NCBI RefSeq assembly: GCF_042453785.1
Contig: NC_091674.1
Location: 19,193,001-19,257,000, forward strand
DNA length: 64,000 nt
DNA from: Malus domestica
Lineage: Eukaryota > Streptophyta > Magnoliopsida > Rosales > Rosaceae
Direction: 5' to 3'
A program made the translations under genes and the position numbers. The notes under the pieces were generated by a model. That model saw nothing but the letters and a program-made list of their open reading frames with translations, was not told where the DNA came from and made no database searches. Below are positions 17,235 through 64,000 of the stretch, piece by piece (position 1 is the stretch's first letter; every line of letters begins with the position of its first letter).

Positions 17235-17304
17235 TGGTATCGAGAGCAGAAAGTTCTTGGTGACCTAAAACAACATCCAAATACACAAACCCTAGCTGCA
17301 ACTC

Positions 17305-18004: not shown

Positions 18005-18064
18005 TGTAACATCCCACATCGCCCATGTGAGTGATCCTTAAATGTATATTCTCATCCCTACTTA

Positions 18065-18515: not shown

Positions 18516-18983
18516 TTCCCAGAAACAAAACCGCGAAGGCGTGGTCATGGCCCAAAACGGACAATATCGTGCTACGGTGGTGGAACGAGCCTGGGAAGTG
18601 GTATGCCCCAGGCCGGGATGTGACGGAAGGTAGTAACAGAGGCAGCGGCATTTGCTGCGAAAGGGAGCAACCGCGACCAAGAGAATGGGACATCAAAAAG
18701 AAACCCAAATGCTAAGTGTGAAAAATGCGACAAGACGAGACACACAAGTGAAAATGTCGTTTTCATCTTAAATGTGATTCTTGTGGTTGGACGGGTCATA
18801 CAATTGACTACTGTCACAAATACAAGAAAGTTCATAAGAAGCGCAACAACACATGAAGAGATACTTCCAGAGGTAACAATGTCTTATCCTTTACCTCGGA
18901 CAAACCAGAACCGTCTAGCTCATTCCCGTTCACTCCGGAGCAATGCAAACAAATCCTAAGCATGCTGAACACCAACAAATCAA

Positions 18984-21900
18984 ATGCGATGGCACATAAT
19001 GTTGGTAATTCTACAACCTTTAGTGACTTGTCAGGTAAAGCATTTTGTTTTTCTTCACATGGAAAAAATGATGCCTTGGCTATTTGATAATGGTGCTACT
19101 CATCACATGATTTGTTCACATACCTTGTTAACCTCTTGCATACCTGTCCATAATAAAACTGTACAACTCCCAGATGGGTCTTATGCCAAAGTTACACATG
19201 TTGGGAAAATGGTCTTTTCAGCCCAGTTGATTCTTACAGATGTTCTTTGCATCCTATCCTTTAGTTTAAATCTCATTTCAATAAGCAAACTCACACTCAC
19301 TTCCTTTTGTATAACCATCTTCCTTCATCGTTATTATGTCATACAAGACCTACGTTCGGGGAAGATGATTGGGACAGGAACTGAGAATGAGGGACTTTAC
19401 TACCTTGATAATTGCAAGCCTACAACCTGCCATGCCGTCCAAACACCATATCCTGCTTCTTGGCATCAACGCCTTGGTCACCCCTCGCATAAAGTTTTAC
19501 ATTTTCTTTCGAATTTTGTTGGTTCAATCAAGCCTTGTGATGCTAATGATTGCCTTGTTTGTCCACTGGCAAAGCAAACAAGAACTCATTTTCCTTTAAG
19601 CTCAATTTCCACCGTTAAACATTTTGAATTATTGCATATGGATATTTGGGGTGGTTACCACATCCCTTTTTTTCCGGTGCTCATTATTTCCTTACAATCG
19701 TCGACGATTACACTCGTTGCACATGGGTGTATCTCATGCATCATAAATCTGACACACGCACATTTTTTATGCATTTCATTGCTCTTGTTGAGACACAATA
19801 TATGTCTACTGTTAAACTGCTTCGTAGTGACAATGGTCCAAAGTTTAACCTTGACTCCTTTTATTCATCCAAGGGAATTGTCCACCAAACAGTTGTGTTG
19901 CAACACCTCAACAGAACGAGGTTGTTGAAAGAAAGCACCACCATTTGTTGAACGTAGCACGAGCACTACTTTTCTAAGCCAAATTACCTAAACAATTTTG
20001 GGGGGAAGCCATTCTAACCGCCACTTACCTCATCAATCGCACACCCACACCGGTTCTTAACGGTAAAACTCCATATGAACTCTTGTTTTCTACTTCACCT
20101 CAATACATGCACCTTAGGGTTTTTGGATGCTTGTGTTTTGCCTCCACACACGCACACCGACCTTCAAAATTTGATGCTCGTGCCACTTGTTGCATATTTC
20201 TTGGTTATCCACATGGCCAAAAAGGATACAAGGTTTATGAAATTGAACTTGGAAAAATGTTCACATCTCGAGATGTAATTTTTCATGAACATGAATTCCC
20301 ATATGCTCACATCTCCACTGCCATTGAACCCATTATTACACCAGCCCATGTACCTCATTTCCATGGCCATGATGATGATTTTGATCCCACAAATCATACC
20401 ACTCCAAAAACACAAGCAACAACCACAAATTCCCTTTCATCCTTACCAATGACACCAACCATATACACTTCACCAACGTCACCTTCTCCAATCATCAGAT
20501 TACCACCATCTGATCCTATCTCACCCCCATCTGATCCTATGTCACCGCCACCCATTTTTATCTCACCACTTTCAGAACCAATCCTTCGTCGTTCCACCTA
20601 TCCGACACATACACCTTCGCACCTTAATGATTATCAAGTTGATGTTGAGCTCCCTTCTCGTCCCACATCTGTCTCTAACGTGGTTCGTAAGTCAGGTACC
20701 TCTCACCCTATTTCTCATTATCTTGCATATAACCAATTATCCACTAACCATTGTGCCTTTACTACCTCACTCACCCATGTCAAAGAACCCAAAACCTTTT
20801 CTCAAGCCATGCAGGATGAACATTGGAGCTGCCATGCGACATGAAATCGATGCCCTCCAAGCCAACAAGACTTGGACGCTTCGTTCCCTACCACCCAACA
20901 AGAAGGCCATTGGGTGCAAATGGGTTTACAATGTTAAATTCAATCCTGACGATACCATCGAACGCTATAAGGTCCGATTGGTGGCGAAGGGTTATAGCCA
21001 AGTAGAAGGCCTCGATTACCGTGAAACCTTTACTCCTGTTGCCAAGCTAAGTACAATTCATCTTCTCCTTGCCATTGATGTTGTCCAAATGTGGCATTTA
21101 CACCAACTCGATGTTAATAAAGCATTTCTTCATGGTGACCTTCATGAGGATGTATACATGTCACTCCCACCTGGTTTTGGACAAAAGGGGGAGACTCGAG
21201 TGTGCAAATTACACAAATCGTTGTATGGACTTAAGCAAGCATCTAGACAGTGGTTCTTGAAGTTGTCAACAGCTCTTAAATCTGCTGGTTATCATCAATC
21301 ACGAGCAAATTATTCATTGTTCGTCCAAACATAAGGTGTTTCATTCACAGCGCTGCTTGTTTATGTATATGATATCATCTTAGCCGGTAATGATTTGCGT
21401 TAAATCGAAGCAACAAAGTGCTTCTTATCTAAAAGGTTCAAGCTTATAGATCTTGGAAAGTTAAAATATTTCTTGGGCTTAGAAGTTGCACGATCAGACA
21501 AAGGCATTACAATCTCATAGAGGAAATATGCTCTAGAAATTTTGGAGGATACGGGCTTTCTTGGTGCAAAGCCTACGAAATTTCCCATGGAGCCGAATCT
21601 CACACTCACGCAAACTGATGGTGCACTACTAAATGATGCCTTTGTGTATAGAAGACTTGTTGGAAGATTAATATACTTGACGATAACGAGACCTGACTTG
21701 GTGTATGCGGTACACGTTCTTAGCCAATTCATGGACAAACCTTGTATTCCACACCTTGTTGCTGCACATAGAGTTATGAGGTACATCAAACAAACACCAG
21801 GACAAGAGCTGTTTCTTTCGGCCTCCAGCTCACTTCAATTAAGAGATTTTTGTGATGCTGACTGGGCATGCTGCAAAGACACTAGAAGATTAGTCACTGG

Positions 21901-22263
21901 ATATTGCATCTTACTTGGTCACTCACCAATTTCTTGGAAGACTATGAAACAAACCACAGTTTCCCATTCAATAGCGGAAGTCGAGTATCGCTTCATGGCA
22001 TCCATTTGTTGCGAGATCACCTGGTTGAGATATATACTAGCTGATTTAAATGTCAAACAGTTGCAGCCTGTTATGCTCCATTGCGACAATCAGGCGGCCC
22101 TACACATAGCTTCAAATCCAGCTTTTCACAAACGCACAAAACACATCGAAATCGACTGTTACTTAGTTCGTGAAAAGCTCCAAGAAGGAATTATTAAGAT
22201 TGCTCATGTTCGAACACATCATCAACTAGCAGACTTGTTTACCAAAGTGTTGGGTTCCCCATA
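18984..22263 (+). pseudogene. copia pol: protease, integrase, reverse transcriptase, RNase H
   Basis: Protease-like LFDNGATHHM appears near 19080, with Asn where the catalytic D-S/T-G motif is expected. The GAG-pre-integrase HHCC finger (HQRLGHPSH ... CLVCPLAK) lies at about 19460-19580, then a frameshift near 19660 leads into the integrase core (VDDYTRCTWVY, SDNGPKF). RT begins near 20890 ([20 protein letters not shown]) and includes [12 protein letters not shown] and [11 protein letters not shown]. Stops lie near 21332 and 21400, and the active-site YVDD reads YVYD. RNase H motifs [14 protein letters not shown] and [14 protein letters not shown] end at the stop near 22262. The element cannot be autonomous now. 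Confidence 0.9.
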
Positions 22264-22323
22264 ATTTGCGGTATTACTTAGCAAGCTAGGAGTGATTAAT
22301 ATACACTCTAACTTGAGGGAGAG

Positions 22324-22538
22324 TGTTAAAGAAGGAAAGGATCAGCACGATTCAAGTAACAAATCAATCCAGTATATATCAAATTAATTGTAATATATTT
22401 TCCTATTATGTTGTATGCTAGCTTTATTGTAGGAGTTAGTTTAGCATCAATTACGTCATAGCTATTGTATATAACCTTATACATTGTGTTGAATAATATC
22501 ATAAGAGAAAGTATTTTACTCAAACAAGATTTCTTTGA
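22324..22538 (+). repeat. 3' LTR of copia element
   Basis: 215 bases starting TGTTAAAG immediately after the polypurine tract, matching the 5' LTR over its last 180 bases. Confidence 0.85.
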
Positions 22539-22548
22539 CCTGAGGCTA

Positions 22549-22723
22549 AGGAGAAATTTTTTATTGTGACGAAAACACGAGTGGTACACTACGTGTTTTT
22601 ATATATATGGTGAGAAATTTTATTTTTTAAGTTATAAACTTTTAAACACACATATCCCACAATTTATATAGTAACATGTGGTGTACCATCTCATGTTTCA
22701 ATCATACTGAAAAATTTCTTGAG
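22549..22723. mobile_element. MITE, GGTACACCACGTG family, copy 2
   Basis: Inverted ends GTGGTACACTACGTG and, on the other strand, GATGGTACACCACATG. Matches copy 1 at roughly nine bases in ten, and the match runs into the flanks (CTGAGGCTAAGGAG on the left, TTGAGGCTGAGGCCT on the right). Confidence 0.7.
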
Positions 22724-22786
22724 GCTGAGGCCTGAGAGACCACAAAGAAAAAAATGCAAAAAGTATGAAAAAAGATGACACATTTA

Positions 22787-36030: not shown

Positions 36031-38343
36031 ACCATTGAACTTGATGGGATACGAATTATATGAAACTAATTTCAACGATCGAACCATCAAACTTGTTTGT
36101 ATATGCTTCAAGATCGTATCAGCAAAAAATCGTAAAAAACAAACATTCAGAGATCAAGTAACCGAACAAAACTTTTCGATAGTTATAAAACAAAAAATAA
36201 CGATTTTACGGTTATTTTAACTCCGATTTTGATTAGTTTTTATAGCTACACTCTTTAATCCTATATGAATACAATGAATAAATTTAATCTTCAATTTAAA
36301 ATATTTACACTACTGGATACCACAAAATCTTATGTCATACTTCATAAAAGTATAAATAAACTCTAAGTGTTAGTGAATCTACCATTTTGATGGGATATGC
36401 ATCATACAAAACTAATTTCAACGATCCAACCGTCAAATTTGTTTGTATATGTTTCGAGATCACATACGCCAAAAATTGAAAAAAACAAACATTCAGAGAT
36501 CAAGTAACGAGACAAAACATTTCGACGATTATAAACGAAAAATCACGATTTAACGGTTATTTTAACTCCGATTTTGATGATTTTTTATAGCTACACTCCT
36601 TGACCAATGAATGAATTCGATCTTCAATTTAAAATATTTACACTAGTGGATACCACAAAATCTTATGTTATACTTAATGAAAGTATGAATAAACTCTTAA
36701 GTATTAATGAATCTATTGTTTTGATAGGATACTCATTCTACGAAACTAGTTTCAATGATCTAACCGTCAAACATGTTTGTATATACTTCGAGATTGCATA
36801 CGCCAAAAATTGCAAAAAACAAACATTCAGAGATCAAGTAACACGACAAAACTTTTCAACGGTTATAAAAAGAAAAATCACGATTTAACGGTTATTTTAA
36901 CTCCGATTTTGATGATTTTTTGCAGCTATACTCCTTGACCCTATATGAATACAATGATTGAATTCGATCTTCAATTTAAAATAGTGTAACACTAGTGGAT
37001 ACCACAAAATCTTACGTTATATTTAATGAAAGTATGAATAAACTCTTAAGTGTTAGTGAATCTAGGGTACGTTTGTTGCATCGGACTATCTTGGACTGGA
37101 CTAACTGCAGGGACTAAGCTGGACTGACTTAGACTAAACTAAGCTGGACTAACTCAGTGAAGCGTTTGGTGCAATGTAAGGACTAAGGAACAGACTAATA
37201 ACAAATTCCAATATTATATTATTTAATTCTTATTTATTAATATTTTATATTATTTAATAAATATTTAGTAATATTTTATTATTACTTATGTCTATTTTCA
37301 AACCTTTTTCCATTCCCAATTGTGGTCCGATCATCCTTTCTCTTCCTTAATTTTCTCTGCCCTTCTCCTTCTGTTTTCTTCCTACTTTTCTTCTTCCCTC
37401 TCCCTTTTTTTCTTCATCCCTCTCCCTTTTCATCTCCATCTTCTTCTTTTGTTCTCCGTTCATCTCCCTATTTTCTTCCTTTTGTTCTCTGTTCATCTCC
37501 CTCTTTTGATGAAAGAAATTAACATCAAAATTAAACCCAGAAGCTGTTCATCTCTGAACTTCATAATCGACTGCAAATCTTCACAATCAAACCACAAAGT
37601 AAGAAAGAGATTGAAAATTTAGGAGTTGGGAGCAGGTTGCATGTGCGATTGCCCTGAAGGTAGAAGATGGGGGTTGGATCTGGTTTGCGTTTTCTGAGTT
37701 TTTGGTTTTCTGGGTGCTGTGGTTGAAAAATTCAAGCTCACCTCATTGCAGATTTTTTGGGTTTCTGGTTTTCTTGGTGTCGTGTGATTGAAAATTTCAA
37801 GCTCATCTCACTTTCAGATTTTTTTTTATAGGTTTTTTGAGATTTTGGGTGTTGGATGTGGGTTTGAAAATAGAACGTTTGCAAATTTTTCTTCTATTTT
37901 GTTTCGATTTTGCCGTATCTAGTCTTGAAGATGGTTCTGGGAAGCACAGACGAAGTAGATGGATGTGCGAAGCGGGAGGGGGAAGCTTAGGGCTTAGCAG
38001 TTCGCCCGATTTCGAGGGGTTTCGCTAAGCCCCTTTAGCAAAGTGTTTAGTCCAATTTAGTCGGGGCGAGTCCCATTAAAGTTAGGCCCTTTCGTAAACA
38101 AACACGGGATTAGAACAAACATTCAAAGATCAAGTAACGGGACAAAACTTTTCGATGGTTATAAAACGAAAAATCACGATTTAACGGTTATTTTAACTCA
38201 TATTTTGATGATCTTTTTTACAGCTACACTCCTTGACCTTATATGAATACAAAGAATGAATTCGATCTTCAATTTAAAATATTTACATTAGTGGATATCA
38301 CAAAATCTTATGTTATACTTAATAAAAGTATGAATAAACTATA
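36031..38343. repeat. ~345-bp tandem array, four units, last one interrupted
   Basis: Units begin near 36031, 36380 and 36713; a fourth is cut at 37064 and resumes at 38113. Shared words include TTGATGGGATA, AACAAACATTCAGAGATCA, ATCACGATTTAACGGTTAT and GGATACCACAAAATCTTA. The array lies inside the hAT element. The fourth unit lost about 130 bases at the insertion point. Confidence 0.8.
37065..38108. mobile_element. Non-autonomous DNA element inside the tandem array
   Basis: Ends GGGTACGTTTGTTGCATC (left) and, inverted, CCCGTGTTTGTTTACGAAAG (right). The interior starts with repeated GGACTAA/GGACTGACT motifs and has a pyrimidine-rich tract near 37330-37510 that creates spurious open frames. 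Target duplication unclear. Superfamily not assigned (Harbinger- or hAT-like). Confidence 0.55.
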
Positions 38344-38721
38344 ATAATTATATATATTAATTGCATATCCTTTTACATTTAATATTTGTAATAGATTAGT
38401 AGTGTATGTATTATTTTTTTATTAGGCTTTTATTTTCGAGTGTAGATGTAGTACTTAAATGACAAATGTGTTTTAATGTTTTGAAGTAATATTTATGTGG
38501 CAATGTGTGGTATGTGCAAATTTAAGAAAAAAAATATTTTTTTAATGGATCATAACTGGTCGAGTCACTTTACCTTTACCCGTTGGGTAAAGTGACCCGA
38601 CCTTTTAAGGACCCGTTAAGATAACGGGTGTGACACGACATGACCTGCTAAAATAACATGTGTTGCACGAAAATAACACGAACATGACAAACATGACCCG
38701 TTTGCCAGGCCTAACAAATAC

Positions 38722-39996
38722 CGAAGAATACCAGTAGACCGTTGAATAGTGAGTTTGTTATCTGGTAGACCGAAACGCCGTTATTGTGGGCCGGACTGGT
38801 TTGGCTTGGATGGTGACGTGTTGACGTCAGGTTCTGACATGTGGACCCGATTAACGTGTGCTCTTTTCGTCCTTGAGCTGTCGTTTGTTAACGATGGGTA
38901 GAGAGGGGAAGTTTATGGTTAATCCTGGCCGCTGAGTTTTGCGTCGCTGCGTTAGAGCCCGTAGGATTATGTGACGGCGTTTGGTTAACTTTTTTGGCCA
39001 CGTACACTTACGATCCACTCGCTCCCACTACCGGTCACGTTATAATAACTCCCCACACTCCCCAGCAGCAGCAGCAGCAGCCCCCACTCCCTTCTCCTTC
39101 ATCCAGAGCTTCTTCAGAGAAACGGGTATTTCCCCAGAGCCCTCCAAAGCCCCGTGAATTCAAATAGCGGCTCCATTCTTCTTAATTTTTTTACTTTTTA
39201 ACCCCAAAAATTTGAAAAAAGGTAAAATCTTTTACCTTTGGCCTTCTCACATGGGATTCTAATTTAGCTTCCGGCACCATCAGTTTGGAGTCATCATCAC
39301 ATGTACGTTTCCACTCCTCTCTCTCTCTCTCTCTCATTCCTCACAGTAATTTTCTCTCTCCACATATTTGTTACTTGTTCTAAAGAGTAATTTTTCTGTG
39401 GATTATTTGGGTTCAGAGGCAGATTTGAACTGGTTTTTCACTTGGGTTCACTCAATAAGCAGAGAACTTTGATGGGTCAGATCTGAAATCAGTGGTGTTT
39501 ATGTTTAGGTACGTTTTGAGCTTCTGGGCACTTTTGTTTTCCATTTTTTTTTACAGCCTCTGGAAACAATGCCCATGTAAAATTGTTTGGGTTTCTGCAA
39601 TTTTTTCGAAATTTGAACTTGCAAAGCTCAAAGCAAACAAAGAACAAAGAACAAAAAGAAGCTCGATTTCTTGTAGTACTTGTGCATACTTTGCTTCTTT
39701 TTGAACAATAAAATAACTCCCTTTTTAATTATAAAAACACGATATTCAAAGCCTGCAAAAGCTCGTTTCTTTATATCAGAAATTTCTGAGAGTCACCTCT
39801 GCTTTTTCTCGACAATGTTCTTGGAATCCGATTTACTTTTCTTTTTTTCCTTTCGCTTTACAATCTGTCTTTTGTATTTTTAGCTTGTTTTTTCCCTCTA
39901 TATTTTGTCAGAAGCTTGAAAAGATTGAAACTTTGCAGGAACAGTTCATTTTCTGCTTCAAGGGTTTGGGATTTTGGTTTGAGGGTAGTGAAGGAA
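38722..39996 (+). promoter_or_regulatory. Promoter and 5' UTR region of the receptor pseudokinase gene
   Basis: Less AT-rich than its surroundings, with TGACGTCA-like ACGT motifs near 38831, a (CAG)n run at 39065-39080 and (CT)n at 39318-39337, all common in plant leaders. The transcription start is not determined; a leader intron is possible. Confidence 0.45.
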
Positions 39997-42879
39997 ATGG
40001 CGGGTCATGGTATTTTGTATTGGATTTTGCTTTTGGGTTTGATTTTCTTGCATGGAAATGCAAACCCAGTTGAAGATAAGCAGGCGTTGCTCGATTTCGT
40101 GAACAATTTCCCTCACTCTCGCTCTCTGAATTGGAACCAGAGCAGTTCTGTGTGTGACCACTGGACTGGAGTGACTTGTAGCGAGGATAAGTCGTATGTC
40201 ATAGCTGTCCGATTGCCTGGCATTGGATTTACCGGCCAGATACCGGCCAACACGCTTAGCCGCCTCTCGAGGCTGCAGACTTTGAGTCTTAGATCCAATG
40301 TGATTAGTGGGGAGTTCCCTTCTGATTTCTCCAATCTGAAGAATTTGTCTTTTCTGTATCTTCAGTTCAACAACTTCTCTGGGCCACTGCCCTTGGACTT
40401 CTCGGTTTGGAAAAACCTCACCATTGTTAATTTGTCTAACAATCACTTCAATGGGAGCATTCCTTTTTCGCTCTTCAACTTGACTCAGCTTTCGGGATTG
40501 AATCTAGCAAACAACTCGCTTTCGGGTGAAATCCCTGATCTTGGACGACATAAATTGCAGCAGCTTAACTTATCTAACAACAAGCTGAATGGTAGTGTCC
40601 CTGAGTCTCTTCAGAGGTTTCCAAGGTCGGTGTTTGTTGGTAACAACGTTTCTTTTGCAAGTTTTCCACCTGAGCTTCCCTCAGTTCTTCCGCCCACCCC
40701 TAAACCATATCCGAAATCTAAGAATGGTGGGAAGCTTGGTGAGACAGCACTGTTGGGAATTATAGTTGCTGGTGCTGTTTTAGGCATTGTAGCATTTGCA
40801 TTTCTGATACTTGTTTTCTGCTCAAGAAGAAAGAAAGAAGATGGGCTTTCTGGAAAATTGTCCAAGGGGGAAATGTCACCGGAAAAGGTGATCTCACGGA
40901 GTCAAGATGCAAATAATAAACTGGTATTCTTTGAGGGCTGCCACTACGCATTTGATCTGGAGGACTTATTGAGGGCTTCAGCTGAGGTGCTTGGGAAGGG
41001 GACATTTGGTACAGCATATAAGGCTATACTAGAAGATGCAACCAGTGTGGTGGTGAAGAGGTTGAAGGATGTAAATGTTGGAAAGCGGGACTTTGAGCAA
41101 CATATGGAGGTTGTCGGCAATATTAGGCATGAAAATGTGATTGAATTGAAGGCGTATTATTATTCCAAAGATGAGAAGCTGATGGTATATGATTACTACA
41201 ATCAAGGGAGCATCTCTGCCTTGTTACACGGTACGTTACTGTCTTCCATATATCATATTTGATACATGTTAGCCTGGTCACGCCGATAATCTTTCTGTTG
41301 AAAAGAGTTGAATGTAAATAGCTGATTGTTTACCTTTCTTTCGAAGTTAATACCCTTGATATCCCGTACGTTATAGGCATTATCTTTCTATTAGTACTCT
41401 GCTGTATCTAAAATTGGTGGAACAACTTGTATTGTATTTGATCATTATAATCTGTTGGACCTGTACTACTAGGTATGTGAAAGATGCCATTTGGAACAAG
41501 CCCGAAACATAGAGGAATACTATGAGTCTTAGCTTCAACTCACTGTTTTTAAATGGTTTTAGGTCGTCAAATATTTGAACGTGTCATGGTTAACTCCTTT
41601 GCTGTGTAAGGCTTCTACGATTCCTGTGGCTTACAATTTTAATGCTTGAATTTTGAGGGTTAGGAGCTAATTTTGGTTTAATCAATAAAACAATAATGAC
41701 CGCTTTTTAGTCAAGTGATAATTGGTGCATCAAAATACTACGTGGTAGGTACCAACCGTGTGTGAAGTTTTGTGGTACATCACGTACTGCTTCACCCGTC
41801 AAGAGAAACTAGCTTCATGAGAGTCTGTGAGTGGGTTCACTGATGTTACTTTGCCTTATACCTTTGTAAGGCTTCAACATTTCTTTGACCAAGGAATGTA
41901 AGTTTTGAAACTAGGATAATCCATGGTTACTCAATATAAAGTGATATTTTGGACATTGGGGAGTAAATATCTGTCTGAATAGCTTGTTTGTGTAAAAGGT
42001 CCTATGGTTCTTACATTCTAGATTTCTTTGTTTGTAATCCAAGTGGTGCGCTGGAAATGTTCATTCCCTCAAGGCAGAGACATGCAAATATTGTATTTTA
42101 CACATCATGCTTGACAATATTTGGTTGGTGGCATGCTTGGCATTCTTACCCCATTGTCTATGCTGCACGCTTCATCCCTTGTAGCGGCTAATATATATCA
42201 TGCAATATTCTTTCCATTTTCAGGTAGAAGAGGAGAGGACAGAAATCCTTTAGATTGGGACACCCGACTGAGAATAGCAATTGGAGCCGCAAGAGGAATT
42301 GCTCATATTCATACAGCGAATGGCGGGAAGCTGGTCCATGGAAATGTCAAAGCCTCAAACATCTTTGTAAACACGCAACAGTATGGTTTTGTTTCTGATG
42401 TTGGTCTGGCAACTATAATGAGCTCACTGGCTCCCCCAATCTCCCGTGCTGCTGGTTACCGAGCTCCAGAAGTGACAGACACCAGGAAGTCAGGACAACC
42501 TGCTGATGTCTACAGCTTTGGGGTTGTCTTACTGGAACTCCTCACTGGAAAATCCCCAATCCATACAACTGCCGGTGATGAGATTGTCCATTTGGTCAGG
42601 TGGGTTCATTCAGTTGTCCGAGAGGAGTGGACAGCGGAAGTGTTTGACATAGAGCTGATGAGGTATCTAAATATAGAGGAGGAAATGGTGGAGATGTTGC
42701 AGATAGCCATGTCTTGTGTTGTAAGGATGCCCGATCAACGACCTAAAATGCTGGATGTAGTGAAGATGGTAGAAAGTGTCCGTCGGGCAGATAATGACAA
42801 TCGACCATCTTCTGGAAACAGATCCGAGAGCTCAACACCACCTCTGGTGGTTGGAGCAGAAAATCCAACTTCGCAATGA
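39997..42879 (+). CDS. LRR receptor-like kinase, probable pseudokinase (At4g23740/At5g53320 type)
   Basis: Two exons, 39997-41230 and 42224-42879 (GT-AG), give 629 residues. A signal peptide covers residues 1-22. An LRR N-terminal cap and about five LRRs follow to residue 215, then a Pro-rich linker, a transmembrane helix near 253-275 and an RRKKE stop-transfer sequence. The kinase fold is present: [11 protein letters not shown] near 332 and VVVK with Lys353. However, the catalytic loop reads HGNVKASN (His450) instead of HRDLKxxN, and DFG is DVG at 470-472. Loss of both catalytic aspartate contexts is typical of the LRR-III family members annotated as probable inactive receptor kinases, which signal by scaffolding at the plasma membrane. 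Start chosen at the ATG that begins the signal peptide; an upstream in-frame extension to 39916 lacks an initiator consensus. Ligand unknown. Confidence 0.93.
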
Positions 42880-43819: not shown

Positions 43820-44091
43820 GTTGCTCTCATTTTAATGGTTAGATGCACATTAACGAGAAGAAATCAAAATGTGTTTAGTTATTCAATAATACCTTTGCAT
43901 TAATGCTTTCCCAAGTGAGAAGATGTGAGAATTAACAAGAGGGAGCCAACAGTCAAGGTGACACACTCCGATCCAGAATGTCCACTTGGACTCCGAATTG
44001 CGTTGTGTTGGCCAACATCAGGAAGGTGATGAAGCCATAAAATGTGGTGATTTATGTTGCAAAGAAGAAGAGAGATACAGAGAGAGAGAGA
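43820..44091. repeat. Tandem duplication, copy 1 (272 bases)
   Basis: GTTGCTCTCATTTTAATGG to the GA-run at 44075-44091. Copy 2 starts at 44095 and is split by the LTR retrotransposon after 44131, resuming at 48176 and ending at the GA-run near 48400. The word GACACACTCCGATCC and others are shared. Confidence 0.8.
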
Positions 44092-44131
44092 GAGGTTGCT
44101 CTCATTTTAACGGTTAGATGCACATTAACGA

Positions 44132-44491
44132 TGTTTATACCATATTTAGGACCTCGTATTTGGATTTCGTACAAATACTCGGGGGACTTAAATGTAATTA
44201 TGTGATAAAGGAATGGGAAAATATGTAATAAATGAGGAGCCCTTATTCTATAAAAGGACTCCTCACCCTCACAATTGGGGGAGACCAATTCCTAGGCCCT
44301 CTCACCCCTCTCACATCCCCTCTCATATTCAGAGGTTCTCTCCCTCATCTCTCAGATAAACACAATAATCAGTGTGGACGTAGCCCAAACCTTGGGGTGA
44401 ACCACGATACATCTTGTGTTATTTACATTTCTTGCAGATTCACGGTCGGATTTACGTTGTTCCAAGACCCCTCCGGTTTTGTGTATCAACA
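44132..44491 (+). repeat. 5' LTR of the gene-capturing element
   Basis: 360 bases. TATA-like TTCTATAAAAGGACTCC lies near 44247 and probably drives element transcription. Same family as 47811-48170 and the solo LTR 50602-50970. Confidence 0.92.
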
Positions 44492-44511
44492 TTTGGCACC
44501 GTCTGTGGGAA
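44492..44511 (+). promoter_or_regulatory. Primer-binding site of the gene-capturing element
   Basis: TTTGGCACCGTCTGTGGGAA directly after the LTR. Position and sequence are those of the tRNA primer site in TAT-type gypsy elements. Confidence 0.7.
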
Positions 44512-44699
44512 TCGACACGAAAAGCTATGTCGGTTCTCTTTCATTTTTTCATCTCACCACCGTAAAAAATCCACCACCTCCACTGTACTTACACTTTCAT
44601 GTCATGCATCCATTTTTCTCTTATCTGTTCATATTCTTTGAATGATCAGACATTAGCCATGGCTACTAGCTTGTACATTTGCAGTTCACTATTTCTTTT

Positions 44700-45040
44700 T
44701 GTTTCCTTTTCTCTGCTGCTTAATCATACAAGTTGAGCTCAAGAGCTAGCTCCCTTTGTCTTTATTGATCTCTATTTTTCCATTTTATCTTCTTATGCCT
44801 TGGCTACAATACTACTTTGAGAGAGAAAGAGAGATGGGACATCACTCATGCTGCAACAAACAGAAAGTGAAGAGGAGGCTATGGTCTCCAGAAGAAGATG
44901 AAAAACTCATCAACTACATCACAACACATGGCTATGGCTGCTGCAGCTCAGTTCCTAAACTTGCAGGCCTTCAGGGATGTGGAAAGAGTTGTAGACCATG
45001 GATAAATTATCTGAGACTTGACTTAAAACGTGGGAGACTC
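44700..45040 (+). pseudogene. Captured R2R3-MYB fragment (leader + R2 repeat), intronless
   Basis: ATG 44834 opens [20 protein letters not shown] and continues through [14 protein letters not shown] and [12 protein letters not shown], the first MYB repeat of a plant R2R3-MYB with its typical leader upstream. The intron that R2R3-MYB genes normally have near PKLAG/L is absent, pointing to an mRNA origin. Key residues are damaged: the second structural Trp is Cys (GCCSSV), and CRLRW is shortened to CRPW. Homology stops after KRG and the second repeat is missing. It cannot encode a DNA-binding MYB. The MYB subgroup is not certain. Confidence 0.85.
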
Positions 45041-45044
45041 ACGT

Positions 45045-45420
45045 CATGGGGCACCCTACCACTCCTTACCCTCCGATCCCTACAACTACAGCAAGTTCTC
45101 CGTCAAACAAATGCCTGAAACAGGCATGCAAACCGTCCAAAATAATCAACCACTTCCTTGGCAAAACTAAGCACAAGTCATTTTTCATAAACGACAGCGA
45201 GGTGAACGCCCTGAAGGACTGCCAGCAGTTCTCGGAGCTGAACGTGGAGTACTTGGAGGCAACCTCGATAGAGCTCAAGTCCGCCGAGTCGCTGAACGAG
45301 GAGCTGGTGAACAAGGTGCAAACGCTACTGAGCGGCATTGTGACCAACCAGCAGACTTGTTACGATGGGCTTCTGGTGTCCAAGAGCACTGTTTTGGGAA
45401 ACGATACGAAAACAGGCAAA
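45045..45420 (+). pseudogene. Captured pectin methylesterase fragment (PMEI-like pro-domain)
   Basis: Reads [13 protein letters not shown], then after a frameshift near 45108 [36 protein letters not shown] and KVQTLLSGIVTNQQTCYDGL. These are hallmark segments of the N-terminal inhibitor-like domain of plant pectin methylesterases, with the conserved DC and QTC cysteines. No catalytic pectinesterase domain follows. The junction to the MYB fragment lies within about 15 bases of 45040, and this fragment is in the same orientation. Confidence 0.82.
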
Positions 45421-45439
45421 GATGCTTCGTGTTCATCTT

Positions 45440-45679
45440 AAGCATCTCAGTCCCTTGAACTCAGTTGTTGCAGCAGCAGCAAAAACCACCAATCCAGATC
45501 GTGCCACATCTGTCAATGGCAGACTAGGGTTGCTTCAAACGACTGCTCCAATGAAACTACTCCCTGCTGGTTTCTCGTGCATGACTGATGTGGCACAATC
45601 TCAACCGTTAACTGTGGTTTCATCAACTGCCAAGCCATCCCAGAACATCACCGTTGATCATCACCTAAAAGATGACGAC
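45440..45679 (+). other. Unidentified captured segment
   Basis: Open in the frame of 45365-45805 (SVVAAAAKTTNPDRATSVNG, DVAQSQPLTVVSSTAKPSQN). It has coding-like composition but I do not recognise the protein. It could be the N-terminal leader of the lipoxygenase transcript or a separate host gene. Confidence 0.4.
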
Positions 45680-45825
45680 AAGAAGATCAGATGGATGGTG
45701 GTGTTGATGAAGAAGAATGTTTTGGAGTTCAACGACCTCAAGGCTTCATTTCTTGATAGTTTCCATGAGTTGCGAGGTAAAAAAAGTTTCACTGCAGCTC
45801 ATTAGTTCTGTTAATTATGACCCTG
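45680..45825 (+). pseudogene. Captured lipoxygenase N-terminal (PLAT) fragment
   Basis: Encodes VVLMKKNVLEFNDLKASFLD and HELRGKK, then after a one-base shift in an A-run KVSLQLISSVNYDP. These match the start of the PLAT/LH2 domain of plant lipoxygenases (consensus VVLMKKNVLDFND ... HELLGxxVSLQLISAV). Only about 48 residues are present, and no catalytic domain. Confidence 0.82.
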
Positions 45826-46389
45826 TGCTAGTGGTAGTACAGCAGAGGCTCGCCATGTTGTTTGGTACGGAAGAACATGACTAGTCAACTCAATTTCAGC
45901 TTGAAAACCAGTAGAAAACGCCGCAGATGCCGTTGGTGATTATGAAGATCCTCAGAAAGAAGTAAAAGAATAGAAGCGGCAGAGGCGTTCATGTGGGAGA
46001 TTGATATTGGTATGCTCACATTCATGCCGAGACGACGACGAGGGCCCGGGCATGCTGGAACCATTCTCGTGTTTGGAGCAAGATGTCGGATCCATTGACG
46101 GGTTGAAGAGAGAGGGCTAAGCAGGACACGGTGGGATCGAATCAAGAGATATTGTAGAGAGAGATACTCAATGTACACAGAGAGAGAAAGAAATAAAGGT
46201 AGTTAATGCTTTCTGAGATGATGAAACATAAAGATGGAAAAGAGAACGACAAAAGCAAAAGATAGAGGTACAAGATGTCACCAATGATTCATATTCGTCG
46301 TTTCAAGCAAGTTAAAAGCAATATTTTTGAATGATGTAATTTATTTTTCTTAGCTTTCGGAGACATCTGTATAAACCCCATCAGAGGGT
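45826..46389. other. Unidentified segment ending before poly(A)
   Basis: No protein recognised. On the - strand a frame starting MDPTSCSKHENGSSMPGPSS (start near 46099), preceded by a pyrimidine-rich leader-like stretch, looks like the beginning of a plant gene, so a fourth captured fragment in antisense is possible. Confidence 0.3.
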
Positions 46390-46409
46390 AAAAAAAAAAA
46401 AAAAAAAAA
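46390..46409 (+). repeat. Internal poly(A) run
   Basis: Twenty A, directly after the captured host sequences and before element-specific repeats. Consistent with capture from a polyadenylated transcript. Confidence 0.6.
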
Positions 46410-46475
46410 GGGCAAAGCCCAAAATAAATGGGCTGGCATGTTATGGGAGGCAAAAGCCCATAAGCCCAAAATAGC

Positions 46476-46718
46476 ACCAACCAGGTGATCAAAAGTACGC
46501 CCAGTACTTCAAAATTATTCGGCAACCTGCCGCTATTACCACCAACCAGGTGATCAAAAGTACACCCAGTACTCCAAAATTATTCGGCAACCCGCCGCTA
46601 TTATCACCAACCAGGTGATCAAAAGTACGTCCAGTACTACAAAAAATTATTTGGCAACCTACTGTTATTACCACCAACCAGGTGATCAAAAGTACGCCCA
46701 GTACTTCAAAATTATACA
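46476..46718 (+). repeat. 65-67-bp tandem repeat, ~3.8 units
   Basis: Units begin near CCAGGTGATC at 46481, 46546, 46611 and 46678. Each contains AAGTAC-GCCCA-GTACTT, a six-base-pair hairpin. Confidence 0.9.
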
Positions 46719-46725
46719 TGAGCAT

Positions 46726-46953
46726 CACTCATGTCATTCATACATAAACATTCGTGAGCATCACTCATAACCATTATTCATGTCAACATTCATGAGCATC
46801 ACTCATGTTAACATTCATGAGCATCACTCATGTTAACATTCATGAGCATCACTCATGTCGACATTCATGAACATCACTCATGTCAACATCCATGAGCATC
46901 ACTCATGTCAATCAATATAAACATTCATGAGCATCACTTATGTCAATCATCTT
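46726..46953 (+). repeat. 26-bp tandem repeat, about 8 units
   Basis: Unit core CATGAGCATCACTCATG is itself a hairpin (CATGAG/CTCATG) joined by TTAACATT or TCAACATT. Confidence 0.9.
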
Positions 46954-46954
46954 T

Positions 46955-47110
46955 AAAAGCTCCATTTACAAAAGCTCTAGCTTCAAAAGCTTCATATACA
47001 GAGCTCTAGCTTCAAAAGCTTCATTTATAGAGCTCCAGCTTCAAAAGCTTCATTTACAGAGCTCTAGCTTCAAAAGCTTCACTTGCAAAGCTTCACCTAC
47101 AAAGCTTCAG
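46955..47110 (+). repeat. ~30-bp tandem repeat, about 5 units
   Basis: Units of GAGCTCTAGCTTCAAAAGCTTCATTTACA, rich in nested AGCT/AAGCTT palindromes. Confidence 0.88.
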
Positions 47111-47142
47111 TGCAGGGTATACAAATATCGCCTCTGAACAAA

Positions 47143-47600
47143 CGCCACTTTGGCCCATACATGGATTCAATTTGAAGTCTCCAGCTAACAAACTCTATTG
47201 ATCGAAGACTTGAGGGACTACATTATGTACCATATATCGGGCCTCAACTAGGCCTCATAAAAAAATACTTGGGGGACTTAGCCCATTATTTATGTACTGA
47301 GGAGTGAGCCCTTATGCTATAAAAGGGACTCCCTCACTTTCATTAGAGAGCACTCATGAAAAATACTTGGGGGACTTACCCCATCACTTATGTATTGAGG
47401 AGCGACCCCTTATTTTCTAAAAGGGACTTCCTCACCATCATTAGAGAGCATCAACTCTAGCCCATCATTCATGTATTGAGGAGCGAACCCTTATTCTATA
47501 AAAGGGACTCCCTTACCATCATTAGAGAGCATCAACTCTAGCCCATCATTCATTTATTGAGGAGCGAACCCTTATTCTATAAAAGGAACTCCCTCACCTT
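47143..47600 (+). repeat. Reiterated 3'-end/LTR-promoter-like segment, ~4 units
   Basis: 47143-47230 repeats the segment found just before the 3' LTR (GGCCCATACATGGATT ... GAAGACTTGAGGGACTAC). It is followed by a diverged LTR start (TACCATATATCGGGCCTC, CTTGGGGGACTTA). TATA-box-like CTATAAAAGGGACTCCCTCA recurs near 47325, 47415 (degenerate), 47500 and 47580. A partial older LTR whose promoter core was tandemly amplified fits best. Confidence 0.75.
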
Positions 47601-47810
47601 CAACGCCACAAGCCGAGCCAATCAAGGCAACATAAGCCACGAGCTGAGCAGCCTCGCAGCATGTGCTACTTCTAGTTGAGCATCATTTCAGATTGAGCAC
47701 CGCCTCATATCAAACATCAGTTCAAGACAACAGTTACTTCGGCCCACACATGGACTGAATTTCAAGTCTCCAGCCAAAAGACTCTCTTGACTGAAGACTT
47801 GGGAGACTAC

Positions 47811-48170
47811 TGTTTATACCATATTTAGGGCCTCGTATTTAGATCTCGTACAAATACTCGGGGGACTTAAATGTAATTATGTGATAAAGGAAGGGGAAAA
47901 TATGTAATAAGTGAGGAGCTCTTATTCTATAAAATGACTCCTCACCCTCACAATTGGGGGATACCAATTCCTAGGCCCTTTCACCCCTCTCACATCCCCT
48001 CTCATATTCAGAGGTTCTCTCCCTCACCTCTCAGATAAATACAATAATCAGTGTGGACGTAGCCCAAACCTTGGGATGAACCACGATACATCTTGTGTTA
48101 TTTACATTTCTTGCAGATTCACGGTCTGATTTACGTTGTTCCAAGATCCCTCCGGTTTTGTGCATCAACA
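47811..48170 (+). repeat. 3' LTR of the gene-capturing element
   Basis: 360 bases, same length as the 5' LTR, about 15 substitutions, mostly transitions. Ends GTGCATCAACA before the AACGA duplication. Confidence 0.92.
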
Positions 48171-48400
48171 AACGAGAAGAAATCAAAATGTGTTAAGTTA
48201 TTCAATAATACCTTTTCATTAATGCTTTCCTAAGTGAGAAGATGTGAGACTTAACAAGGGGGATCCAACAACCAAGGTGACACACTCCGATCCGGAATGT
48301 CCACTTGGACTCCGAATTGAGTTGTGTTAGCCAACACCAGAAAGATGATGAAGCCATAAAATTTGGTGATTTATGTTGCAGAGAAGAAGAGAGATACACA

Positions 48401-48403
48401 CAA

Positions 48404-48486
<83 letters not shown>
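48401..48486. repeat. Long (GA)n microsatellite
   Basis: About 40 GA units with few interruptions. It creates spurious Arg-Glu and Ser-Leu open frames on both strands. It sits at the end of tandem duplication copy 2. Confidence 0.95.
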
Positions 48487-50299: not shown

Positions 50300-51085
50300 C
50301 CATAAATATATATATAATATAATTAAAAACAAATGCTCACTCACACTTTATGTTTTTCGCTCTCCAGGACTTAGTTAGCTATATCTTTTGTGGTGAACGA
50401 GAGATCTTTGGCGATTCTAACATCCACCCAAATAAATGTAGGAGTTTGTTTCCTGTTGTGTAATAATTATCTTACCTAGGTTGGACTGTTCTACTTATGT
50501 CTCAGTGTCATCTATGCTTTGACTACTTGTGTAATATGGTTCTTCCCACAAATGTGCACTCTCTTTATTAGCTTTAATAAATTCTAATTTCGGTTTAAAT
50601 TTGTTTATACCATATTTAGGGCCTCGTATTTAGACATCGTATAAATACTCAGGAGACTTAAATGTAATTATGTGATAAAGGAATGGGCAAATATGTAATA
50701 AGTGAGGAGTCCTTATTCTATAAAAGGACCCCTCACCCTCACAATTAGGGGAGGCCATTTTCTGATGCCATTCCTAAGCCTCTCACCCCCTCTCAAAGCT
50801 CTCACATTATAGAGCTCCTCCTCTCTCTCTCCCTTAGATAAATACATATTCAGTGTAGACGTAGCTGAAACCTTGGGGTGAACCACGATACATCTTGTAT
50901 CATTTATATTACTTGCAGATTCACGGTCGGATTTACGTTGTTCCAAGACCTCCGGTTTTGTGCATCAACAAAATTTATTCTATTTTTTACACGTCACTTA
51001 CACTTTTGGTCACGTCACTTACACTTTTGGTTACGTCACCTTTGAGTATCTGCCAGCATGCCTCGACTCAAATCTATGTGTGTCA
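50300..51085 (+). mobile_element. Degenerate gypsy long-LTR end, split by a solo LTR
   Basis: Left part (GCTCACTCACACTTTATG, CTCTCCAGGACTTAG, AATGTAGGAG) and right part (TTACGTCACC, CTGCCAGCATGCC, ending TGTGTGTCA) correspond in order to the last ~700 bases of the solo LTRs at 23614-25920 and 33387-35560, though much diverged. CACGTCACTTACACTTTTGGT is tandemly doubled near 50990. Confidence 0.55.
50597..50975 (+). mobile_element. Solo LTR of the gene-capturing element's family, AAATT target duplications
   Basis: LTR 50602-50970 (TGTTTATACC ... GTGCATCAACA) with AAATT on both sides (50597-50601, 50971-50975). More diverged from the two LTRs at 44.1 and 47.8 kb than those are from each other, including an extra CTCTCAAAGCTCTC stretch. 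Confidence 0.9.
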
Positions 51086-55994: not shown

Positions 55995-56283
55995 CACGAT
56001 GCGATTTGAAACCTCCAAAAAGAAGAAAACTCCTTTATCAGTATCGAACATGGATGTTTACTGTGTAGGACTGGTTCATTTTCTAGTGGGCTTCAAATGG
56101 GTTGGCCCAAATAACTATTTCAAACAAGTGTGGCTCTTCCAAGTACCGGGTATTCAAGCCTGTTCAAGACTGAAATGTCCCTTCACTTATTTTATGACAT
56201 ATGAAGTGCCCGCTCGAATATCTGACACTTTGAAAAAAAAATTCCTTCTTAAGGGATTCGGTGGGGTTTTTGTCTAAATGACT

Positions 56284-56700
56284 TGGGGGGGGTGTGTTCA
56301 ATTGGGATTGTGAGGGATTTTAATTCTTTTAATGAATTTAGGGGGTATTTAATCACAATTTTAAGTGATTCTTTGAAATTCAAAGTGTATTCAATCATGA
56401 TTTTAAGATAGCGTATTAAAATCCTTAGAAATCCGGGTGTATTCAATTGGAATTTTAAAAAAGTTTATAACATTTCAGGTATATTCAATTAGAAATTGAT
56501 TTTAAAGAATTTGAAAATGTTGAGAAATTAGAGGGAATTAGAGAGATTTCGTAGTGTATTTTAAGCATCCACAAATCTCACTTCTTCCCATGAGATTTTG
56601 AGGGAATTGAATCAAAATTTTACATGAAATTTCTACAAATCAATTAAACTCTGTAAAATCCTTTAAAATATCTCATATTCCCAAATTGAATACACCCTCC
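56284..56700. mobile_element. MITE, GGGTGTGTTCAATTG family (copy in A)
   Basis: Ends GGTGTGTTCAATTGGGATT and, inverted, GGGTGTATTCAATTTGGGAA; GTATTCAATT recurs internally. Second copy at 62155-62554. Confidence 0.7.
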
Positions 56701-56913
56701 TCAAAGGGTGAGTTGATTTTTAATAAAAGGAGACCTAGATACCCCAACAGTCAAATTTATTTTTTGGGATTAATATGGATGTTATGAGCAATTTTTGTTT
56801 TTTTTATTACCAAAAAAATTAACCTCTTTGTTTTTTGTTGGGTAAGTGAAAAGTTTACTAGTTAGTACCTAATGCGAGCACAGTTATAATCGTTAGATCA
56901 ACAAGTTTATCAT

Positions 56914-57083
56914 GGAGAGATTTTTCAGTGTGATCGGCGTACAGGATGGTACACCACGTGTTTTTATGTAAGTGGTGAAAATTTTTATTTTTTAAGTTAT
57001 TAATTTTTTAACACACATATCCCATAATTTATATAGTAACACGTGTATCATTCCGTGTACTGGTCACATTGAAAAATCTCTCC
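56914..57083. mobile_element. MITE, GGTACACCACGTG family, copy 4 (best preserved ends)
   Basis: Left GGAGAGATTTTTCAGTGTGA and, inverted, right GGAGAGATTTTTCAATGTGA, then GTACACCACGTG at the inner part of the left repeat. Shows that the terminal repeats are about 50 bases. Confidence 0.8.
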
Positions 57084-57849
57084 ACCATGAGTTACGACTT
57101 ACAGCGATCAACTGAGCTGTGTTCCTATAAAAGTACGAACTCGTAATGAAGATGCACCTTAACCTGAAATTGGTAATGCATGCATGCTTTTCATTGAGTT
57201 TGAAGGGTTTTTCTAAGTATAATTTTTTCGATGTCTTATGTGTAAAAATAAATAATTTTCTTATATGAAGTTATGGCACTTTTTTTTACGTCGCCCCGGA
57301 CCTCAAAAATCTCTGGACCGGCCCTACTCGTAATGAAGATGCACCTTAACCTGAAATTGGTAAAGCATGCATGCTTTTCATTGTATTTTTTTTTTAAAAC
57401 GCTTTTCATTGTAATTGGATGGTATGGCTTTTACATTGTATTTTTTTTTAAAACGCTTTTCATTGTAATTGGATGGTATGATTGGGTGGGCAGGCCACTT
57501 CAATTTTTGTGGCCTTTACAACTTCAAGCAACTATTTGAGTTTAGAGGTCCCCTCTATTTCGTTGATCCTGCAAAATCTTATGAACAGTGACACTAGCTG
57601 TTCATGTGCCACTGCCAGCCAACCAAAACCCTAGTGAGACAGTGCAAAGTAACTAGGACAGTGACTTGCAGATGCACCGCCAATAACGACGAAATCTAAA
57701 ATTTTAACATTTGATGATCCTAATATAAAACAAATTGATGATGATTTTCACTTGTAATATTGTTCTTTTCTACATGTCAATTAATCGAAAATAAAAAACC
57801 ATATCAATTGATGATGCTAAATAAATAAATATATACAGCCCTTTAATAA

Positions 57850-58040
57850 GGAAAGGGATTCCTATTTTTTTTTTTTAAATGAGGACAATCTCTTGACCGT
57901 TAGATTTGGCTTTAATAAAATTATATTGTTGAGATTAAATTACAGGCCACAAAATCTCAACCACATAATTTCATTAAAGCCAAATCTAACGGTCAAGAGA
58001 GTGTCCTCATTAAAAAAATGAGGATTTCTTCCCTTAAAGG
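57850..58040. mobile_element. Foldback MITE, GGAAAGGGATTCC family (copy in A)
   Basis: Arms CTCTTGACCGTTAGATTTGG and CCAAATCTAACGGTCAAGAG are perfect inverse copies, within a longer palindrome. Second copy at 63453-63648. Confidence 0.8.
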
Positions 58041-58447
58041 CTTCCTATATATATGTAAACTAACCTAACACATGATCCAAACAATATCAAAAACCCATAA
58101 CAGCTAACAATAACTATAACCTAGAATGAATTTAACATCCTATATGATTAATTAAGATTAAAATAGAAAAACTTACTTAAATTTAGAAATTGGGGGATTA
58201 AGTGGTGGGAAGAGAAGTGAACTAGGTGGTGGTCGTGGTGGCAGGGGGATTCGTTGGATGGGGATAGCCAATTAGGGAATTGGGAAAGTGAATGAAATGG
58301 GAATGGGAAAAGTGAAGTCGGAGGTCTGGGGTTGAGGAAATAGTTGTTCGAACCTCTCTTTCTTTTTTTTGAATAAAAAAGGGTGAGGCTCTCACATTGC
58401 TTAATAAGATGGGTGAGTTTTATTTTTTTATTTTTAAATAACTTGAC

Positions 58448-61872: not shown

Positions 61873-62154
61873 CACGATGCGATTTGAAACCTCCAAAAAG
61901 AAGAAAACTCGAACATGGATGTGTACTGTGTAGGACTGGTTCATTTTCTAGTGGGCTTCAAATGGGTTGGCCCAAATAACCATTTCAAACAAGTGTGGCT
62001 CTTCCAAGTACCGGGTATTCAAGCCTGTTCAAGACTGAAATGTCTCCCTTCACTTATTTTATGACATATGAAGTGCCCGCTCGAATATCCGGCACTTTGA
62101 AAAAAAAAAATTCCTTCTTAAGGGATTCGGTGGGTTTTTGTCTAAATGACTTAA

Positions 62155-62554
62155 GGGGTGTGTTCAATTGGGATTGTGAGTGATTTTAATTCTTTTAATG
62201 AATTTAGGGGTATTTAATCACAATTTTAAGTGATTCTTTGAAATTCAAAGTGTATTCAATCATGATTTTAAGATAGCATATTAAAATCCTTAGAAATCCG
62301 GGTGTATTCAATTGGAATTTTAAAGAAGTTTATAACATTCCAGGTATATTCAATTAGAAATTGATTTTAAAGAATTTGAAAATGTTGAGAAATTGGAGAG
62401 ATTTCGTAGTGTATTTTAAGCATCCACAAATATCATTTCTTCCCATGAGATTTTGAGGGAATTGAATCAAAATTTTACATGAAATCTTTACAAATCAATT
62501 AAACTCTGTAAAATCCTTTAAAATATCTCATATTCCCAAATTGAATACACCCTT
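62155..62554. mobile_element. MITE, GGGTGTGTTCAATTG family (copy in B)
   Basis: Same element as 56284-56700, carried along by the large duplication. Confidence 0.7.
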
Positions 62555-62769
62555 CTCAAGGGGTGAGTTGATTTTTAATAAAAGGAGACCTAGATATCCC
62601 AACAGTCAAATTTATTTTTTGGGATTAATATGGATGTTATCAGCAATTTTTGTTTTTTTTTATTACCAAAAAAATTAACCTCTTTGTTTTTTGTTGGGTA
62701 AGTGAAAAGTTTACTAGTTAGTACCTAATGCGAGCGCAGTTATAATCGTTAGATCAACAAGTTCACCGT

Positions 62770-62926
62770 GGAGAGATTTTTCAATGTGATCGGCATACAT
62801 GATGGTACACCACGTGTTTTTATGTAAGTGGTGAGAAATTTTATTTTTTAACATACATATCTCATAATTTATATAGTGACACGTGGTGTATTATTCCGTA
62901 TGCCGATCACACTGAAAAATCTCTCC
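62770..62926. mobile_element. MITE, GGTACACCACGTG family, copy 5
   Basis: Counterpart of 56914-57083; GGAGAGATTTTTCAATGTGA at the left and inverse at the right. Confidence 0.8.
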
Positions 62927-63452
62927 ACCATGAGTTACGACTTACAGCAATCAACTGAGCTGTGTTCCTATAAAAGTACGAACTCGTAATGAAGATGCAC
63001 CTTAACCTGAAATTGGTAATGCATGCATGCTTTTCATTGTATTTTTTTTTTAAAACGCTTTTCATTGTAATTGGATGGTATGATTGGGTGGGCAGGCCAC
63101 TTCAATTTTTGTGGCCTTTACAACTTCAAGCAACTATTTGAGTTTAGAGGTCCCCTCTATTTCGTTGATCCTGCAAAATCTTATGAACAGTGACACTAGC
63201 TGTTCATGTGCCACTGCCAGCCAAACCAAAACCCTAGTGAGACAGTGCAAAGTAACTAGGAAAGTGACTTGCAGATGCACCGCCAATAATGACGAAATCC
63301 AGAATTTTAACATTTGATGGTCATAATATAAAATAAATTGATGATGATTTTCACTTGTAATATTGTCCTTTTCTACATGTCAATTAATCGAAAATAAAAA
63401 ACTATATCAATTGATGATGCTAAATAAATAAATATATACATGTTCTTTAATA

Positions 63453-63643
63453 AGGAAAGGGATTCCCATTTTTCAAAAAAAATTAGAACACCCTCTTGAC
63501 TGTTAGATCTGGTTTTAATGAAATTCTGTGCTTAAGATTAAATCACAGGTCACAGAATCTCAACCACATAATTTCATTAAAACCAGATCTAACGGTCAGG
63601 AGAGTGTTCCTATTTTTTTTGAAAATGGGGATCCCTTCCCTTA

Positions 63644-63648
<5 letters not shown>
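63453..63648. mobile_element. Foldback MITE, GGAAAGGGATTCC family (copy in B)
   Basis: Counterpart of 57850-58040, with arms CTCTTGACTGTTAGATCTGG and CCAGATCTAACGGTCAGGAG. Confidence 0.8.

Positions 63649-63723
<75 letters not shown>
63649..63723. repeat. (CT)n(TA)n compound microsatellite
   Basis: About 27 CT units followed by about 10 TA units. Absent at the equivalent place in copy A, where only CTTCCTATATATATG stands. Confidence 0.95.
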
Positions 63724-64000
63724 GTAAATGTAAACTAACCTAACACATGATCCAAACAATATAAAAAACCCATAACAGTTAACAATAACTATAACCTAGG
63801 ATGAATTTAACATCCTATATGATTAATTTAGATTAAAATAGAAAAACTTACTTAAATTTAGAAATTGGGGGATTAAGTGGTGGTGGTGGAGAGTAGAGGT
63901 GGTGGCATGGGGATTCGTTGGATGGGGATAGCCAATTAAGGGAATTGGGAAAGTGAATGAGATGGGAATGGGAAAAGTGAAGTCGGAGGTCTGGGAATGA

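Follow-up and report, generated by a model that had tools for sequence, protein, structure and literature searches.

How does a retrotransposon without genes of its own come to carry pieces of unrelated host genes, and by what route do those pieces enter it? The question is raised by positions 44132-48170 of a 64,000-nucleotide stretch of the apple (Malus domestica) genome (C14:19193001-19257000, hereafter the window), a non-autonomous long terminal repeat (LTR) element whose interior holds fragments from at least five host sources. Whole-genome searches, which covered 651 Mb in 19 contigs, place it in what seems to be a large apple family of gene-less LTR retrotransposons with different host cargo in most copies examined. 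We consider it probable that the family is moved in trans and that its variable interior is loaded with spliced host exons, through spliced host-element RNAs and template switching by reverse transcriptase.

The element and its insertion site are made up of the following parts:

44127-44131, no strand: left target-site duplication (TSD), AACGA, exact.
44132-44491, + strand: 5' LTR, 360 bp, TGTT...AACA.
44492-44566, + strand: leader with a putative primer-binding site (TTTGGCACCGTCTGTGGGAA...), common to most family members examined; the MYB piece follows directly.
46324-47810, + strand: 3' block of the family, comprising an AT-rich segment, a run of 20 A residues and arrays of ~65-, 25-, 29- and 81/98-bp repeats that reach the 3' LTR.
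47811-48170, + strand: 3' LTR, 95.8% identical to the 5' LTR (K 0.043).
48171-48175, no strand: right TSD, AACGA, exact.
43852-44094, + strand: copy of the target duplication to the left of the element, an empty site, 92% identical to 48171-48413.

The matching 360-base LTRs and exact AACGA duplications reported in a preliminary description of the window are borne out, the LTR pair showing 15 differences and TG...CA ends. The insertion sits within one copy of a ~275-bp tandem duplication, of which the other copy is the uninterrupted site. At a rate of 1.3e-8 per site per year, K = 0.043 corresponds to an insertion about 1.7 million years old, or older if trees evolve more slowly. Also as described, the element lacks gag and pol, in that no such Pfam domain was found in the seven window open reading frames (ORFs) scanned; no gag or pol family was detected in ORFs (60+ residues) from the corresponding slots, between leader and 3' block, of 22 other members, and the element yielded no reverse transcriptase. 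In an alignment of 23 members, most have a TGGCGCCGTCTGTGGGAA-like string after the LTR, L011 and L019 being different; as to the TAT-type primer site of the preliminary description, ARAGORN detected no tRNA gene in the 64-kb window with which it could be compared. A related solo LTR of the same family (50602-50970, + strand; 84.8% identical, with AAATT on both sides) lies 2.4 kb downstream.

Between leader and 3' block, the window element carries these pieces:

44567-45036, + strand: MYB26-like fragment with 5' untranslated region (UTR), exon 1 (ATG at 44834, exon end at 44966) and part of exon 2; parent on C17, 90-92% identical.
45037-45058, + strand: 22-bp stretch of unknown origin between the MYB and pectin methylesterase pieces, also found after the MYB piece in L053, where it is shared to 45057.
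45059-45405, + strand: pectin methylesterase (PME) fragment (PMEI domain) with a 1-base insertion; parent on C7, 95% identical.
45410-45825, + strand: 9-lipoxygenase (LOX) fragment, 5' UTR end plus exon 1, with a 1-base frameshift; parent on C4, 94%.
45840-45929, + strand: Dof-zinc-finger-like fragment, so labelled from a reading of the parental ORF; parent on C15, 93%.
46022-46146, - strand: fifth host fragment; two related C13 loci, 92% over 46029-46146, antisense to their long ORF.

The parental loci were sought by comparing 44560-46390 with the whole genome, and among the best 40 of 1843 candidate places scored there were also second, less similar loci for MYB (C9), PME (C2) and LOX (C12), and no full copy of the window cargo elsewhere. 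Pfam recognized Myb (6e-7) and PMEI (4e-11) in window ORFs, and a protein search of the interior, proposed earlier as a check, gave significant matches for all three genes: 3e-60 and 90% to apple LOX, 3e-51 and 83% to an apple pectinesterase, and 2e-35 to the full-length apple MYB26-like protein P0031, the better MYB matches P0029 and P0030 being chimeras themselves. The proteins closest to the cargo come from Malus and Pyrus. For the region after LOX, Pfam and PDB searches gave nothing useful, and neither did a search of Rfam. The preliminary description had counted three host fragments, all sense; those three similarities are significant, and the Dof-like piece and the piece at ~46022-46146 had been missed, so that there are at least five sources, the fifth of which contradicts the uniform sense orientation. 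The idea that the 5'-most piece is always the youngest was rejected, as it would need parental identity to fall from 5' to 3', and the values along the element are 90-92% (MYB), 95% (PME), 94% (LOX), 93% (Dof-like) and 92% (fifth piece).

The parental 194-bp GT-AG intron that follows the 133-base first coding exon of the MYB gene is cleanly absent from the element, and its loss makes spliced RNA the source of that piece. The gene model P0031 had suggested that the MYB piece retains a 5'-UTR intron; this reading was dropped, because the parental locus aligns there unbroken. The missing intron also bears on the alternative named in the preliminary description, in which the interior is ordinary host DNA between two unrelated solo LTRs. 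The related solo LTR downstream of the element lends that account some colour; set against it are the matching TSD, the 95.8% LTR identity, the intron-free MYB piece, parents on other chromosomes (C17, C7 and C4 among them) and the same architecture in 23 other loci, by all of which it is refuted.

A further question is whether the 20-base A run, previously described as a poly(A) that follows the host fragments, marks the end of a captured transcript. The run occupies 46390-46409, inside the 3' block that starts near 46324. In six further elements fetched by their LTRs, the LTR and leader are shared with the window to 44549-44566 and similarity resumes at 46322-46328, upstream of the A run (in one of the six, L010, only the LTR is shared at the 5' side). 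When the 3' ends of 24 slots were aligned, the same block was found, with variable A/T-rich tracts at the same place. Because members with other cargo share sequence on both of its sides, the A run belongs to the element, and its interpretation as the poly(A) tail of a captured mRNA was abandoned. The captured 3' poly(A) that characterizes a LINE-type retrocopy is likewise not found.

To what extent is the window element typical? Besides the window, 26 family loci were fetched, six and then 20 more, chosen by closeness of their LTRs to those of the window (best 40 of 4301 candidate places scored). A slot from leader to 3' block could be measured in 23 of the 26 (the others being L026, L031 and L034) and ranges from 294 to 2,613 bp, with 21 slots of 1.1-2.6 kb and two, in L012 and L019, of 294 bp. 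Cargo matches longer than 200 bp were confined to the pairs L009/L029 (90%, 687 bp) and L013/L016 (93%, 519 bp); shorter matches between loci are frequent, and mostly involve slot ends or A-rich stretches. An exact 5-bp TSD flanks 16 of the 23 elements with an LTR pair assessed, the window included. With regard to the size of the family, the genome contains, when up to 2 mismatches are allowed, 1,364 matches (698 forward, 666 reverse) to a 28-base piece of the 3' block, as against none to the reversed control, a figure that counts the piece and not whole or loaded elements. Two loci show more complex arrangements. At L014/L015 (C9:8309600-8323600), in a family element with 13.6 kb between its LTRs, the 3' block that follows the cargo is interrupted by ~10 kb of other sequence, probably a nested insertion, before it ends and the 3' LTR begins. 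In L026 (C15:11826700-11833200), an LTR has the 3'-block end directly upstream and the leader directly downstream, like elements that share an LTR in tandem.

The coding content of the slots is strongly oriented. From ORFs of at least 60 residues scanned with Pfam at E <= 0.01, the sense strand of 22 loci (the window's four ORFs left out) gave 15 plus 11 Pfam rows from 64 plus 84 ORFs (26 rows, 148 ORFs), a count that includes overlapping rows (two kinase models, two TPR models) and a few close to the threshold, such as ARL6IP6 and NXPE4_C, that may have arisen by chance. No row came from the 123 antisense ORFs, of which three belong to the window. The families include H+-pyrophosphatase, PC-esterase/PMR5N, protein kinases, linker histone, ribosomal protein S21, SOUL, X8, EAF, Auxin_inducible, BRX_N, SBP and APH.

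Loss of introns extends to the three other cargoes with mapped parents, L020, L013 and L011. A kinase fragment in L020, SnRK2-like by reading, matches three exons on C8 with two introns absent (another piece of this cargo, q197-357, matches C3 and C17 and may or may not be a host gene). L013 carries a piece of a TBL-type gene of C3 that lacks a 400-bp intron and ends exactly at the exon-2 donor, and L011 holds pieces from at least five loci, two of which (gene A and a hydroxyproline-rich-like gene) span parental introns, both absent. Over the four cargoes, the intron is missing in six of six cases in which one is spanned: MYB, SnRK2-like twice, TBL, gene A and hydroxyproline-rich-like. The identifiable cargo is host exon sequence, nearly all sense, with parental introns removed. 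Capture at the DNA level, by double-strand-break repair or ectopic recombination, has been proposed for Pack-MULEs and Helitrons, and the multi-gene cargo and the short filler at 45037-45058 do resemble end joining; the six absent introns and the confinement of Pfam rows to sense ORFs make such an origin most improbable in this family.

The borders of the fragments speak to the joining step itself. About half of the fragment ends examined are parental splice sites. The LOX piece stops exactly at the parental exon-1 donor (CCCTG|GTAAGA), and in all four of 11 fragment 3' ends coincide exactly with a parental 5' splice site (LOX, TBL, hydroxyproline-rich-like and SOUL), with SnRK2 within 1 nucleotide (nt). 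At the other side, the SnRK2 piece follows a canonical acceptor, beginning right after parental TTTCATTACAG, and the RPS21 piece follows AG. Moreover, L016 carries TTTCTTTCGCAG where its sister L013 has TBL exon 2, before the same shared sequence, and this string looks like a 3' splice site. A simpler process would be template switching at random points among co-packaged spliced host mRNAs and element RNA, with no chimeric splicing. This accounts for intron loss, sense bias, microhomology joints and those 3' ends that lie away from donors (MYB, PME, Dof-like, gene A, RPS21 and ARM-like), but it does not predict that five of 11 ends lie at or within 1 nt of parental donors, nor the start right after an acceptor, nor the acceptor-like sequence at the L013/L016 joint. 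As the whole explanation, it strikes us as rather unlikely.

Several points weigh against the reading favoured here, in which chimeric splicing and template switching both take part. The family is known here from genomic sequence alone, the loci are not a random sample, and parents are mapped for only four of 24 cargoes. Six of the 11 3' ends, those just listed, are not at donors, and of six unambiguous starts, four (MYB, PME, SOUL and TBL) are not after AG, the LOX and Dof-like starts being ambiguous. Ends and starts of this kind mean that splicing cannot be the sole joining step. Four exact ends among 11 have a probability of ~2e-7 if a random break meets an exon end once per 200 nt, or 0.0035 counting any GT, in binomial calculations that treat breaks as independent and use a single exon length. 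Since LOX, TBL and SnRK2 gave rise to the splice idea, the independent test is limited to the five ends of L011, two of them at donors (P 0.0002 versus exon ends, 0.03 versus any GT). Finally, no autonomous partner turned up, although no search aimed at it was made.

How, then, could an element be loaded by spliced host-element RNAs and template switching? The family retains what reverse transcription would need, namely LTRs, a leader with a primer site, and a 3' block with repeats, with the host pieces in between, and its mobility would be provided in trans by an autonomous element. Where a copy lies in or beside a gene, element and host transcripts could be joined by splicing, either from a host exon donor to an acceptor that the element or its cargo provides, or from an element exon to a host acceptor. 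Such a chimeric RNA would then enter a particle together with a normal element RNA, and reverse transcriptase, switching templates at the leader and at stretches of short microhomology, would restore the element ends. More tentatively, the family may act as an exon trap, in which transcripts are spliced to host exons, a template switch occurs at the fixed leader and cargo is reassorted between copies, so that a host slot of changing content would be a permanent feature of the family; here our confidence falls a little short of even.

Loaded elements integrate with target duplications, and sister elements combine the blocks of cargo in different ways. The MYB-PME junction of the window is found again in L039. 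In seven sister loci (L037, L038, L043-L046 and L048), the LOX block and the pieces that follow it are preceded by 5' cargo of at least two unrelated kinds; five of the seven share deletions at 45734-45884, with a 5-base repeat at the edges, and ~45955-46021. The string GGGAAAC ends the PME piece of the window and is also found before the LOX block in L045, which suggests that the window arose by recombination between two cargo lineages, an element with MYB-PME and one with X-LOX-Dof-fifth piece, apparently joined at this string. Such sister copies, together with the TSDs of loaded elements, support the earlier view of a host-gene-shuffling, Bs1-like LTR element that is moved in trans, a view that had overlooked the wider family and its changing cargo.

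Do the chimeras serve a purpose? One possibility is that the cargo is under selection, either because the chimeras encode new proteins or because they have a regulatory role, such as the production of small RNAs that target MYB26, PME and LOX. Two apple protein models of 250 aa, P0029 and P0030, run through MYB, PME, LOX and the following piece in the same order and are annotated as genes, with their PME part read in the wrong frame. In the window, stops and the LOX and PME frameshifts break the reading frames and leave no intact hybrid ORF, and the cargo differs between most copies examined. Selection for the cargo is accordingly very unlikely as an explanation, and a functional chimeric protein from the window element, doubted from the outset, appears unlikely from its sequence. 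There are several residue differences between the two models, as well as between each of them and the window, and P0029 or P0030 may be the window locus in another assembly. For annotators the two models are a caution, in that chimeras of this kind already stand as apple gene models.

Host gene fragments inside full-length LTR elements, some of them amplified, form a class represented by Bs1 and by the elements surveyed in rice, sorghum and maize; it is our impression that worked examples of gene capture by LTR elements, such as Bs1, are few. Pack-MULEs and gene-carrying Helitrons show serial capture and shuffling of multiple genes on a large scale. In contrast to these, the apple elements are RNA-based, with intron-free cargo, LTR ends and a 5-bp TSD, whereas Pack-MULEs hold exons and introns, according to PMC4717578. 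A review (PMC13317346) describes Bs1 of maize as an LTR element with segments of three different host genes. The likeness lies in the presence of several unrelated host genes in one LTR element (in the window, from parents on C17, C7, C4 and C15 and the C13 pair; multi-gene cargo is established by parental loci in two of the four mapped cargoes, the window and L011) and in cargo derived from spliced RNA. The differences are the changing cargo of the apple family, the 1,364 matches to its 3'-block piece, and the several borders at parental splice sites; nor do the broken frames of the window predict a translated hybrid ORF like that of Bs1. The soybean TRIM GmaRetroS15 is a small LTR element with intron-free exons, for which a figure legend mentions three genes, and 30 TRIM elements in seven subfamilies carry gene fragments (PMC4717578). 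GmaRetroS15 is smaller than the apple element, and a family-wide variable slot is not what that paper reports. In the Retand/Tat lineage of Gypsy elements, whose LTRs measure 315-1,194 bp, tandem repeats commonly, if not universally, separate the interior from the 3' LTR (PMC11963269). The apple element has such repeats, and its 360-bp LTR falls in the reported range, a likeness limited to repeats and LTR length since the apple element is without gag and pol; host cargo goes unmentioned in the sections of PMC11963269 consulted.

What seems to be new is a family whose host slot differs in most copies examined, together with its scale and its splice-site borders, and no title on an apple family of this kind was found among the top-ranked titles listed from open-licence PMC papers. 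If the explanation is true, apple holds a natural exon-shuffling machine large enough for fragment starts and ends, splice-site use and selective retention of chimeras to be measured, and provides a case in which ideas on gene capture by LTR retrotransposons can be put to a concrete test.

Other features of the window lie outside the element. A receptor-kinase-like gene, labelled from a reading of its two long ORFs (39790-42879), ends ~1.2 kb upstream of it. Farther upstream, 36041-38344 is composed of ~340-bp tandem units that are 85-90% alike, and 16856-22740 is an apparent Copia-type element, with pol-like ORFs (18969-22264, labelled by reading) between repeated ends. Downstream, 55995-58330 and 61873-63995 are two large direct copies, mostly 90-93% identical.

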